Source of the DNA: a virus | Reading direction: 5' to 3' (one strand) | Virus record (IMG/VR): IMGVR_UViG_3300031554_000003 | Location: 1-42,686 of that record | DNA length: 42,686 nt | Shown here: piece by piece, positions 3,444-20,035 of the stretch | Numbering within the stretch: the first letter of the stretch is position 1 | Layout: the number at the start of each line of letters is the position of its first letter | Notes under the pieces: generated by a model | What the model was told of the DNA's origin: nothing | The model's database searches: none | What the model saw: the letters and a program-made list of their open reading frames with translations, nothing else | Program-made: the position numbers and the translations under genes

Positions 3444-3472
3444 TTGACAAAATAATTTAGTTGTAATAGTAT
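3444..3472 (+). promoter_or_regulatory. Sigma70 promoter P2, leaderless start downstream
   Basis: TTGACA at 3444-3449, 17 bases, TAGTAT at 3467-3472. The A of the ATG at 3480 is the eighth base after the -10 box, which is where transcription should begin. A perfect TATAAT at 3474-3479 also exists but is 24 bases from the -35 box. Confidence 0.65.
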
Positions 3473-3479
3473 ATATAAT

Positions 3480-3653
3480 ATGGAAAAGATAAATAAGAAT
3501 ATTAAGAAACAAGTTAAGAAATGTTCGGCAGTTGCTATTGATACAAATGTCCTGGCAAGTTTAGAAGCGTATCGTAATTCACAGGAAATTAAACCCTCGA
3601 AGATCAATATTATCAATAAATTAGTTAGGGATTTCCTTAAGAATAAGGATTGA
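3480..3653 (+). CDS. Ribbon-helix-helix protein, probable repressor
   Basis: 57 aa. After a Lys-rich tail there is a short strand (SAVAIDTNVL), then two helices (ASLEAYRNSQ and SKINIINKLVRDFLKN), the Arc/CopG/MetJ ribbon-helix-helix pattern. Such small proteins bind operators as dimers. No Shine-Dalgarno sequence precedes the ATG, which instead sits at the predicted transcription start of P2, so the mRNA would be leaderless, as for several phage repressors such as lambda cI from PRM. It stands alone between the lysis block and the tRNA locus. Confidence 0.65.
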   Translation: MEKINKNIKKQVKKCSAVAIDTNVLASLEAYRNSQEIKPSKINIINKLVRDFLKNKD

Positions 3654-3740
3654 AACGTTTTCATTTATGTTTACTCCTAAGACGGGCGATTTATCCAGGC
3701 GGGGCCTTTCGTTGATTGGTACCCGCCAATTCGCCTACAT

Positions 3741-3813
3741 GGTAGGGTGTTGTAGTTGGTAACATACCGGTCTCATAAGCCGGAGTTCGTGGGTTCGAGT
3801 CCCACCCCTACCC
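3741..3813 (+). tRNA. tRNA-Met (CAT)
   Basis: A full cloverleaf is visible. The acceptor stem is GGTAGGG with CCCTACC. The anticodon stem CCGGT/GCCGG holds loop CTCATAA, anticodon CAT. The T arm is GTGGG-TTCGAGT-CCCAC. CCA is not encoded in full. It is the most regular tRNA of the first half of this locus. Confidence 0.85.
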
Positions 3814-3930
3814 AGTGAGAGTACTTGAAGCGGTAAACTCTCAGGGGAGTTGTGGTGATGGGAGTGCATTCCCCGGAATAGCTTGCGACCGAAAAACGTA
3901 CCGTTTCTGACCAACTGGGAAAGTCCGGGT

Positions 3931-4050
3931 AAGGCAGTGGCGAAATAGAGCAGACGCAAATGCGAGTGCCACCCTAGACAAGGTAAGGTTCGCAGAGGAT
4001 CACAGCTAAGAACTGCCCCGTCCGTGCAGGTTCAAATCCTGCCTGTCTTA
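3931..4050 (+). tRNA. tRNA-like unit with Leu-type D arm and abnormal anticodon region
   Basis: AAGGCAG (3931-3937) pairs with CTGTCTT (4043-4049) over seven positions. The T arm is perfect (GCAGG-TTCAAAT-CCTGC), and the D arm resembles leucine tRNA (TGGCGAAATAG, then GACGC). Between them are about 70 bases instead of the usual 40. TGCGA (3961-3965) pairs with TCGCA (3990-3994) around a 24-base loop, and a 31-base stretch follows before the T arm. This may be a tRNA-Leu with a small insert or a tRNA mimic. Confidence 0.5.
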
Positions 4051-4185
4051 ACATCCCGTAAATTGACCAATGTTAAACTGCTGGGATTTGCAACCCGGCA
4101 AGGAGGGTGGTCAGGGTGAGTATCCACTTGTTGATGGTACAGTCCCTTTGCTTCGGTATAGGGGATCAGTCTTTGAGAGAGACGT

Positions 4186-4249
4186 AGAGAGGGTTTCGGT
4201 GACATCGCAGTGCATTGCGGTTAGCTCGGTTCAATTCCGGGCCTCTCTG
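4186..4249 (+). tRNA. Short tRNA-like unit (64 nt) with irregular anticodon arm
   Basis: AGAGAGG (4186-4192) pairs perfectly with CCTCTCT (4242-4248), and the T arm CTCGG-TTCAATT-CCGGG is good. The D arm is minimal (GTT-TCGGT-GAC). The anticodon arm pairs TCGCA with TGCGG around only six bases (GTGCAT), or fewer pairs around eight, so no regular seven-base loop exists. GCA is the only obvious anticodon candidate. It could be a degenerate tRNA-Cys or a non-decoding mimic. Confidence 0.45.
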
Positions 4250-4328
4250 TAGCTTCAACCTGGTTTCTCGCGGAATCGGGCGGGTAATCCTCTCCGGCGT
4301 GAGGGTGCGCCATTCTAAGATGAAGTGA

Positions 4329-4523
4329 GGGGATAAAAAGCTATAGGCAATAGCTTTGGTATTAGATAGGGGAAACGTTACGTCCGGGAATGGTTAATGT
4401 CAGGGAAGCGCGCAAACCCCGGGACCCTTTGAGCTTAGTGGAAATTGAAGGCCGAGTGCTCATTTATGAGATACTGACTGACACTAAGCGAATCTTTTGT
4501 AGGTTCGAGTCCTGCTATCCCTG
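4329..4523 (+). tRNA. tRNA-like unit with ~120-nt structured insert
   Basis: GGGGATA (4329-4335) pairs with TATCCCT (4516-4522). The D arm (AAAGCT and AGCTTT around ATAGGCAAT) and the T arm (GTAGG-TTCGAGT-CCTGC) are intact. The centre is replaced by a long structured segment. GTCC and GGGAC arms enclose 4383-4423, and a perfect 8-bp helix pairs GCTTAGTG (4433-4440) with CACTAAGC (4482-4489) around 41 bases. The insert is too short for an ordinary group I intron. Acceptor plus T arm with a large insert recalls tmRNA design, but no tag reading frame is evident. Confidence 0.45.
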
Positions 4524-4529
4524 TATTGT

Positions 4530-4602
4530 GGTGGGTGCAGCTCAGTGGTAGAGCGCCTGACTGTGAATCAGGGGGCCGCCGGTTCAAGCCCGGTCCCTCA
4601 CC
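4530..4602 (+). tRNA. tRNA-His (GTG)
   Basis: Anticodon arm CCTGA-CTGTGAA-TCAGG gives anticodon GTG. The D arm is GCTC...GAGC and the T arm is GCCGG-TTCAAGC-CCGGT. The acceptor GTGGGTG/CCCTCAC has one mismatch. G at 4530 faces C at 4602, the G(-1):C73 pair typical of histidine tRNA. Confidence 0.85.
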
Positions 4603-4606
4603 TTAT

Positions 4607-4690
4607 GGGAGTATAATCCGTAAGTGGCAGCGGGACTGACTGTAGATCAGTTGTCTTCGGACTCGGGTGGTTCGACTCCATCTACTCCCA
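4607..4690 (+). tRNA. tRNA-Tyr (GTA)
   Basis: The acceptor GGGAGTA/TACTCCC is perfect. The anticodon arm ACTGA-CTGTAGA-TCAGT gives GTA. A long variable arm (GTC-TTCG-GAC) marks a bacterial type II tyrosine tRNA. The T arm is GGTGG-TTCGACT-CCATC. It directly precedes the rightward replication operon. Confidence 0.85.
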
Positions 4691-5000: not shown

Positions 5001-5444
5001 ATGAGTACAGACATTAACAGTGTTGTATTAGTCGGGAGATTAGTGAAAGATGCAGAGCTGAAATACACAAATACCGGGATACCCGTAAGCAGATTAGGGC
5101 TTGCCGTCAACCGGAAGAAAAAGGTAAATAATCAGTGGATTGAAGAGGCTAATTTCTTCGACATCATTGTTTGGGGGAAACTCGCTGAGGTATTACAGCA
5201 ATATCTGTTGAAAGGTAAACAGATCAGTGTCCAGGGCGAGTTAAGACAAAACAGGTGGGAGAAAGAAGGAAAGCCACAAAGTCGGGTAGAAGTGGTTGCA
5301 ATCAATATACAGCTACTCGGGACCGGGACTGGACAAGTTCAGAATAATCCCCCACCACCGCAGTCACCACCTTCAAGGCCGCCATCACAGGGGAATTTGC
5401 CTGATGCCCTGGATGACGATTTTATGAGCGAAATTCCATTTTAA
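5001..5444 (+). CDS. ssb: Single-stranded DNA-binding protein
   Basis: 147 aa. Residues 1-108 form the SSB OB fold (NSVVLVGRLVKDAELKYT at the start, FFDIIVWGKLAE in the middle, VQGELRQNRWE later). A Pro/Gln-rich linker follows, ending in the acidic tip DDDFMSEIPF that recruits partner proteins in bacterial SSBs. Length and layout are those of phage SSBs. It sits upstream of the ERF annealing protein, as expected of a recombination module. Confidence 0.95.
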   Translation: MSTDINSVVLVGRLVKDAELKYTNTGIPVSRLGLAVNRKKKVNNQWIEEANFFDIIVWGKLAEVLQQYLLKGKQISVQGELRQNRWEKEGKPQSRVEVVAINIQLLGTGTGQVQNNPPPPQSPPSRPPSQGNLPDALDDDFMSEIPF

Positions 5445-10100: not shown

Positions 10101-10174
10101 GGGGTTGTGGTGTAAATGGCAGCATAAGCATTATCGGCGTCCGTAAGGTATGGGTTCGAGTCCTGTCAACCCCA
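10101..10174 (+). tRNA. tRNA-like gene without a pairing anticodon stem
   Basis: The acceptor GGGGTTG/CAACCCC is perfect. U8, A14, G18, G19 and A21 fall at their canonical places. The D stem pairs GTGT with GCAT, the T arm is ATGGG-TTCGAGT-CCTGT, and the length is 74 nt. But positions 27-31 (AGCAT) and 39-43 (GTCCG) do not pair and position 33 is A, not T. It is either a decayed tRNA or a non-decoding mimic like the units at 3931-4523. Confidence 0.5.
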
Positions 10175-10232
10175 CTTTTATTTTACAATGAACCATTTCT
10201 GTGACGCCACGAAGATGGTAAAGGAGAAAGAT

Positions 10233-18582: not shown

Positions 18583-19029
18583 TTAAAGTTTTTCTTCAAT
18601 TTTTTTAAGGGCTTTTTCTGCTATAGCTTTTTTCCCTTCTAACCAATCAGCTATTTTTTCAAGCAAACCTTCAGAAATTGCTTTAGAGAATCTTAAAGCG
18701 TCATGTCTTGTTATATCTCCCGTACAATAAGCTAATGACCTATTATAAGGATGATCTTCCCAAACGTCTTGACTCGGGACAATAAGTGTCCACCTGGTAG
18801 TATCTTCTGTGTCTATTTTAATCATGCTGTAATTTTCAGGGAGTTTAATTTCTCGAAACTCTCCTGGCATAGGACTTGTTACATCTTCGCAATAAGATTT
18901 AAGCTGTTCTACAATCTTTATTGCCACTTCATTACAAGCTTCTTTCAATTTTTCAGTAACCCTGGAAGTCTCACTTCCTACTCTTTCTAATCTCTTCAAA
19001 CTGTTAATAATACTATTGTTTTGTGACAT
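18583..19029 (-). CDS. Hypothetical protein with helical ends
   Basis: 148 aa. Helical N terminus (LKRLERVGSETSRVTEKLKE), a beta-rich centre with MIKIDTEDTTRWTLIVPSQD, and a Lys-rich C-terminal helix. No family recognised. AAGGAGG lies 8 bases before the ATG, and the mini-tRNA-like element and a 14-codon leader ORF lie directly upstream. Confidence 0.6.
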   Translation of the reverse strand: MSQNNSIINSLKRLERVGSETSRVTEKLKEACNEVAIKIVEQLKSYCEDVTSPMPGEFREIKLPENYSMIKIDTEDTTRWTLIVPSQDVWEDHPYNRSLAYCTGDITRHDALRFSKAISEGLLEKIADWLEGKKAIAEKALKKIEEKL

Positions 19030-19065: not shown

Positions 19066-19104
19066 AGCCAGCCGGGGAATCGAACCCCGGTAACCGCTCT
19101 GGCT
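19066..19104 (-). ncRNA. Mini-tRNA-like element (acceptor stem plus T arm)
   Basis: 39 nt on the leftward strand. AGCCAG pairs with CTGGCT; an 8-base link AGCGGTTA leads to a perfect T arm CCGGGG-TTCGATT-CCCCGG. There is no D arm or anticodon arm. An alternative hairpin CCGGCT/AGCCGG, using bases just downstream, would break the T arm. It sits in the leader of the 148-aa gene, and the stop codon of a 14-codon ORF lies in its first stem. Confidence 0.65.
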
Positions 19105-19974: not shown

Positions 19975-20035
19975 CCTTTTGCCCGGACTTCGGACCGGGT
20001 CCGTGGTTTACAGGGCTTGCGCCCTGCCGTCACCT
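19975..20035 (-). ncRNA. Twin structured intercistronic element, copy 2
   Basis: 61 nt on the leftward strand with GGTGACGG, hairpin CAGGGC-GCAA-GCCCTG, TAAACC, then CCCGG-TCCGAAGT-CCGGG (5 bp) and AAAAGG. It matches copy 1 (17684-17744) in length and flanks, while the first hairpin is completely re-paired with a GNRA loop in place of UUCG. It begins right at the stop of the 101-aa gene and ends in the ribosome site of the 74-aa gene. Confidence 0.75.

Follow-up and report, generated by a model that had tools for sequence, protein, structure and literature searches.

Within a 1-kb array of tRNA genes, a virus of apparently bacterial hosts encodes three tRNA-like RNAs whose acceptor stem and T arm are preserved, with something other than an anticodon arm between them. 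Whatever their role, we are confident that these units are tRNA-shell RNAs of the type found in phages T4 and T5. We incline, with less assurance, towards a fuller reading in which they are RNAs of the T5 RNA1/RNA2 and T4 RNAC kind whose shell serves for processing and protection and whose exchangeable centre acts. The kind is already known from T4 and T5; the present locus is a new and divergent member, and at least four phage groups now carry such RNAs. What our comparisons appear to add are two further unrelated phages, a Leu-type D-arm signature and the pairing of a constant shell with an exchanged centre, together with a kissing loop in the T4 RNA that shows a compensatory change, although our coverage of the literature was partial and earlier reports may exist.

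The RNA locus and its regular tRNAs

The DNA analysed, hereafter the window, is a virus record of 42,686 nucleotides (IMG/VR IMGVR_UViG_3300031554_000003) encoding a P22-type portal, a terminase, an Erf-like annealing protein, an SSB and a DnaD-like replication protein, which indicate a tailed bacterial phage. Positions are on the plus strand unless marked otherwise. Between 3670 and 4690 the G+C content is 50-53%, against ~36% for the surrounding genome. Here ARAGORN, and Rfam at gathering thresholds, find tRNA-Met(CAT) (3741-3813; 62.5 bits with the Rfam tRNA model), tRNA-His(GTG) (4530-4603) and tRNA-Tyr(GTA) (4607-4690), confirming the three regular tRNAs that an earlier note had read from the sequence alone. 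At the same thresholds Rfam reports no family besides tRNA in the locus, and a permissive search added no further credible one. A fourth tRNA of the window, tRNA-Arg(TCG), stands alone at 10101-10175 (ARAGORN). Upstream of the locus, and of a small ORF at 3480-3653, lies a candidate sigma-70-like promoter (TTGACA-17-TAGTAT, 3444-3472), recognised by consensus match only.

Three shells without an anticodon arm

T arms were defined strictly, by five of five pairs, a TTCRA loop and a G-C closing pair. The plus strand of the window holds eight, six of them in the RNA locus (1,021 bases; the mean for shuffles is 0.002) and the seventh that of tRNA-Arg at 10101. Five strict shells were counted in the locus and none in 2,000 shuffles. 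For each of the three T arms that belong to no regular tRNA (4026-4042, 4225-4241 and 4499-4515), an acceptor strand that pairs 7/7 lies upstream at a spacing that is not that of a tRNA. The three extra units with acceptor and good T arm, as first described, stand beyond what shuffling yields.

Unit 1 (3931-4050), identified by the strict shell scan, by its homologue in a close relative and by its D arm in an unrelated phage, is of Leu type: the acceptor AAGGCAG/CUGUCUU encloses the D arm UGGCGAAAUAGAGCAGACGC, a centre of 68 nt (3958-4025) in place of the anticodon domain, a GU spacer and the T arm at 4026-4042, and is followed by A73. Unit 2 (4186-4249, 64 nt), found by the same scan and by comparison with the relative, consists of the acceptor AGAGAGG/CCUCUCU, the T arm at 4225-4241 and G73, with a very short centre and neither a D arm nor a normal anticodon arm. 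Unit 3 (4280-4523), recognised through its homologue, pairs GCGGGUA (4280-4286) with UAUCCCU (4516-4522) at 6/7 positions and has a D arm at 4289-4304 (CCUC-UCCGGCGU-GAGG), a large centre of about 195 nt, the T arm at 4499-4515 and G73. An alternative 5' acceptor strand at 4329-4335 pairs at 7/7 positions and has no counterpart in the relative. The unit probably starts at 4280 rather than 4329, because the homologue uses that 5' strand and D arm; the boundaries first proposed for units 1 and 2 stand, while that of unit 3 moves.

All three units are encoded inside the tRNA array, all three lack a canonical anticodon arm, and ARAGORN calls none of them as a tRNA. Where tRNAs have G18G19 in the D loop, the Leu-type units read GAG or GUA, and a normal tRNA elbow in them is uncertain.

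Constant shells and exchanged centres in a close relative

Relatives were sought through the SSB, the portal and flanking proteins, and the sole contig with the locus was G002, an IMG/VR contig with a portal 99% identical to that of the window phage. Its promoter counterpart reads TTGACA-17-TAATAT, and its locus has the window's units, partly reordered: leader, tRNA-Met, a terminator-like hairpin, unit 1', module A (an RNA element described below), unit 2, a hairpin and unit 3'. Unit 1' keeps the acceptor (AAGACAG/CUGUCUU, for AAGGCAG in the window), the D arm and the T arm, around a longer centre unrelated to that of unit 1. The region of unit 2 is 93% identical, with a G-C to G-U acceptor change that leaves the pair intact. 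Unit 3' (acceptor GCGGGUG/CGCCCGU, 128 nt plus G73) has its D arm in common with unit 3, and acceptor pair 7 is altered on both strands between the two. A 9-bp hairpin separates units 2 and 3 in the window (4259-4280), and two pairs that vary against G002 are both kept; the spacer at 4051-4185 ('mid') is found in the window only and is absent from the layout of G002. Conservation of the insert helices, on which the earlier note had staked its reading, was not seen in unit 1, whose helices are not kept and whose centre is replaced outright.

The same reordering bears on the idea of one large ornate RNA of GOLLD or ROOL kind with tRNA-like domains. GOLLD and ROOL are large phage RNAs near tRNAs, as this locus is, and a 1-kb GC-rich non-coding island beside tRNAs is what such an RNA would look like; the locus, however, is a modular array and not one fold, its module order differs in G002, its folding energy is not in excess, and the Rfam models for both were unmatched, which makes this the least probable of the explanations we weighed. 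The Rfam check that had been proposed for the locus found no match for GOLLD, ROOL, tmRNA or introns.

Folding of the leader, spacers and centres

Folding energies in the locus are for the most part ordinary. Against shuffled controls, the centre of unit 1 has a z of -0.7, that of unit 3 +1.2 and the stretch 4051-4185 -1.3, and in 120-nt tiles the mean z is -0.26 for the locus versus -0.42 elsewhere. The unusual structure that had been supposed for the inserts is therefore not supported; the spacers are indeed G+C-rich, as was also noted, but their fold energies, near those of shuffles, lend no support to their being full of complementary arms. A candidate pseudoknot in the 'mid' spacer (AUCCCG/UGGGAU with UUGACCA/UGGUCAG) scores no better than shuffles (p 0.40), and its assignment as a theta ribozyme was dropped.

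Two elements are exceptions. The leader 5' of tRNA-Met (3670-3740), in which GGGCGA/UCGCCU closes GGCGGG/CCCGCC, folds with a z of -2.8; it is near-identical in G002, where it is part of a 97% identical block. Module A (3814-3912) is a pseudoknot-capable RNA adjoining a tRNA-type 3' end, after tRNA-Met in the window and after unit 1' in G002, and is built of the stems P1 (UGAGAGU/ACUCUCA) and P2 (GAAGCGGUA/UACCGUUUC) with inner hairpins. Five of its pairs vary between window and G002 and all five stay paired, two of them through a double change, in a test on two sequences that gives no statistical proof and in which the pseudoknot stems P1 and P2 are themselves invariant; the pseudoknot score has a p of about 0.03-0.04 against shuffles. 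Module A resembles the theta ribozymes, HDV-like ribozymes at phage tRNA 3' ends (PMC10879173), in adjoining a tRNA-type 3' end and in its P1/P2 pseudoknot order. As a theta or HDV-like ribozyme it was nevertheless rejected: a single base between the 5' strand of P2 and the 3' strand of P1 leaves no room for P3, the geometry of P1 at the junction misfits, and there is no Rfam match.

Shells in an unrelated phage

The 22-nt D-arm stretch of unit 1, AGTGGCGAAATAGAGCAGACGC, matches exactly (22/22) in G006, a 128-kb contig whose genes are otherwise unlike those of the window phage. The strict scan finds seven shells there, of 64 to 156 nt, inside 7.6 kb; for the unit at 5165 we favour a 146-nt register that includes the D arm, in place of the shorter reading listed by the scan. 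Three of the seven have the Leu-type D arm and A73. ARAGORN calls none of the seven (0/7), although on other parts of the contig it reports a tmRNA and three ordinary tRNAs. Strict shells are far above chance in all three phages, window, G002 and G006. The five Leu-type units of these three phages have acceptors that differ yet are fully complementary. Relatives with ordinary tRNAs and random spacers, which the earlier note had set against its own reading, did not turn up. Searches further afield returned little: the pattern GCGACCGAAAAACGNACCG had nine matches in bacterial genomes, about the chance number, with further similarity in 0/9; a D-arm pattern, run on 398 genomes from a single bacterial phylum, matched once, in what reads as coding sequence; blastn of short D-arm queries against named phages gave nothing relevant; and matches to the pattern CGGGCGGGTRATCCTCTCCGGCG were set aside as a coding region hit by chance.

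These comparisons speak to the view that the units are decayed tRNA genes, in which indels wrecked the anticodon region and left remnants that are now neutral. Gene loss is frequent in phage tRNA arrays, and centres that are idiosyncratic and not unusually stable are what decay would leave. Neutral remains would hardly keep acceptor and T stems intact in 13 units of three phages, with acceptor changes between window and G002 that preserve pairing, nor an identical 22-nt D arm in unrelated phages, and the like-built T5 RNA1 and T4 RNAC are stable RNAs of hundreds of phages. We regard decay as improbable.

Structured segments often adjoin the 3' ends of units, and several have pseudoknot scores with p of 0.01-0.04 against shuffles, values that are suggestive only, the segments having been picked after being noticed. 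One, after a G006 unit (L035 5311-5410), has an exceptionally stable fold (z -6.3) and a candidate H-type pseudoknot read by eye (AAGGGU/ACCCUU with GCUGUU/AACAGC). The same phage has a complete tmRNA gene, tag peptide included (L041 1862-2290, minus strand), and a near-normal tRNA (L035 9781-9859) whose anticodon loop has 8 nt and whose CCA is encoded, possibly of frameshift type or degenerate. Interleaved with its tRNA-like units are runs of short ORFs resembling paralogues with an 'IIPC' motif (L035 762-2368 and 5743-6449), two of which had no Pfam match. Between units, at L035 3078-3647, lies a protein with a weak match to AbiEii-type nucleotidyltransferases (E 0.028, below the cut-off), a class of which some members act on tRNA ends.

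Minimal elements elsewhere in the genomes

Smaller tRNA-like elements of ~40 nt, made of an acceptor stem, a T arm and a short linker, occur outside the array. One lies on the minus strand of the window (19066-19104), just before the ribosome-binding site of the ORF at 18583-19029 (minus strand); its homologue (L005 3260-3297, minus strand) differs by a compensatory A-U to G-C change, and an independent example with a 7/7 acceptor is found in G006 (L035 19838-19879, plus strand). Shuffles give 0.07 such elements per window. In mRNAs such elements might serve as minimal RNase P/Z signals. On the same strand as the window element, and upstream of it, is a type-P5 twister ribozyme (19983-20034, minus strand; 51.8 bits in Rfam against a gathering score of 37.6).

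Counterparts in T4 and T5

That phages T4 and T5 make stable RNAs of this sort is long established. In the T5 record (GenBank AY543070) RNA1 and RNA2 are annotated as 'tRNA-like stable RNA with unknown functions', and lie between tRNAs, near the stable RNAs RNAI, RNAIII, RNAIV and RNA2H. RNA1 runs from acceptor through a Leu-type D arm, a replaced anticodon domain, a V-type arm and a GU spacer to the T arm, and its acceptor varies among T5-like phages with 6/7 pairs kept. RNA1 and RNA2 are encoded among tRNAs, as the window units are, and RNA1 shares with unit 1 a Leu-type D arm right after the acceptor and a 2-nt GU/AU spacer before the T arm; unlike the Leu-type units, it keeps GG in the D loop, lacks A73 and belongs to a different phage group. 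Its centre has no evident similarity to that of unit 1, and common descent is not claimed. DT57C lacks RNA1 and has tRNA-Ser joined directly to RNAI, the same modularity as at the window/G002 locus.

In T4 RNAC (species 1 RNA, 139 nt) the T arm is perfect and the ends are acceptor-like. Across its relatives the V-type arm, the T arm and the central stems covary strongly, and the fold of RNAC has double changes in 16/35 pairs, against 4.6 in shuffles. The central loop and the V loop form a kissing pair, UUGACG/CGUCAA, which becomes UUGAUG/CAUCAA in Yersinia phage fHe-Yen9-01, and Salmonella phage Melville keeps the kiss although its centre is replaced. RNAC is thus like the window units in its acceptor and T arm, its replaced centre, swapped again in Melville, and its place in a tRNA cluster; it differs from them in having no Leu-type D arm, a large V-type hairpin with a kissing loop and a tandem U-U in the acceptor. 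T5 RNA1 and T4 RNAC are kept in hundreds of phages and annotated as full-length mature RNAs. RNAC has been seen on Northern blots as a late RNA to which no function is assigned (PMC9697503), and the stable RNAs of T4 were listed without a function in a 2010 review (PMC3014915) and still in a 2022 transcriptome study (PMC9697503). Beyond the tRNA-like elements the units have no sequence homology with T4 RNAC or T5 RNA1, and among named phages the best listed blastn matches to the locus fall on ordinary tRNAs. The earlier suggestion of tRNA mimics, or tRNAs with non-standard inserts, was right in kind: these are shells without a normal anticodon arm, recurring in G002 and in the unrelated G006 and resembling the annotated T5 and T4 RNAs.

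It could be argued that the units are real tRNAs split by small introns of an unfamiliar class and spliced to normal tRNAs, since the inserts occupy the position of the anticodon arm and the record of phage JLBYU40 names RNA1 as tRNA-Leu(taa). No intron family in Rfam matched, however; the basal helix of G006 unit 2513, as read by eye, leaves 2 nt before the T arm, so that excision of the loop would give no canonical tRNA; and T5 RNA1 and T4 RNAC are annotated as mature at full length. This explanation we consider highly improbable. A group I intron in a tRNA was rejected with the unmatched Rfam intron models, and archaeal bulge-helix-bulge introns were set aside, the phage proteins looking bacterial. 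tmRNA (RF00023) also joins the upper half of a tRNA to a replaced anticodon half, as in the units; the units differ in being far shorter and, in units 1 and 3, in having a D arm. With neither an RF00023 match nor a tag reading frame, the locus was rejected as a tmRNA.

What shell and centre may do

The architecture, its recurrence in unrelated phages, the conserved shells with swapped centres and the modular reordering are matters of observation. On the reading we favour, the shell, consisting of acceptor and T arm (and of the D arm too in units 1 and 3), has its anticodon domain swapped for a non-decoding segment of variable length and would draw on the tRNA machinery of the host: RNase P, RNase Z or exonucleases, T-loop modification and CCA addition. 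This machinery would excise and protect the RNA, which would accumulate during infection, and the exchangeable centre would be the acting part, most likely through binding to RNA or protein in the conflict between phage and host. The centre, under structural constraint at least in T4 RNAC, would be the part most likely to do the work. For the window phage the cargo step is one that we infer, because its centres, with fold energies at the level of shuffles, are no more stable than shuffled sequence; the units would there be expressed, processed, stable and functional. Against a cargo, unit 2, at 64 nt, leaves almost no centre that could act.

The units might instead be tRNA-mimic decoys, in which the shell itself occupies host or defence enzymes that read the acceptor, T arm or elbow (CCA- or acceptor-targeting toxins, LeuRS, EF-Tu); loss of the anticodon would then confer immunity to anticodon nucleases and make the RNA harmless in decoding. 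A conserved shell around a centre free to change, as in G002 and Melville, suits a decoy, and a Leu-type D arm with A73 suits LeuRS, an enzyme that in bacteria ignores the anticodon. Phages are also known to deploy tRNAs against tRNA-cutting defences (PMC11555353). A pure decoy, however, has no need of a centre of 70-200 nt, the centre of the T4 RNAC family is structurally constrained by its central stems and the kiss between central loop and V loop, and the Leu-type units depart from the G18G19 motif. Conservation of the shell, seen with a swapped centre both in unit 1 (window and G002) and in RNAC (T4 and Melville), would fit decoy and cargo equally, and large centres would fit a decoy poorly. 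Decoys are accordingly possible, on the whole unlikely, and a cargo seems the better supported of the two.

More tentatively, and as a proposal that we ourselves find doubtful, all these RNAs may be one device shared by unrelated phages: an exchangeable cargo RNA in the upper half of a tRNA, moved as modules between phages like anti-defence genes, often of Leu type and possibly charged by LeuRS despite having no anticodon, in the way that AlaRS charges tmRNA, with T4 RNAC and T5 RNA1/RNA2 its first, unrecognised examples. In any case, T4 RNAC and T5 RNA1/RNA2, so far single-phage curiosities, become a class with a common layout, which predicts separate jobs for shell and centre. Searching for the shell itself is a route to more such RNAs, which standard tRNA finders skip or misname.
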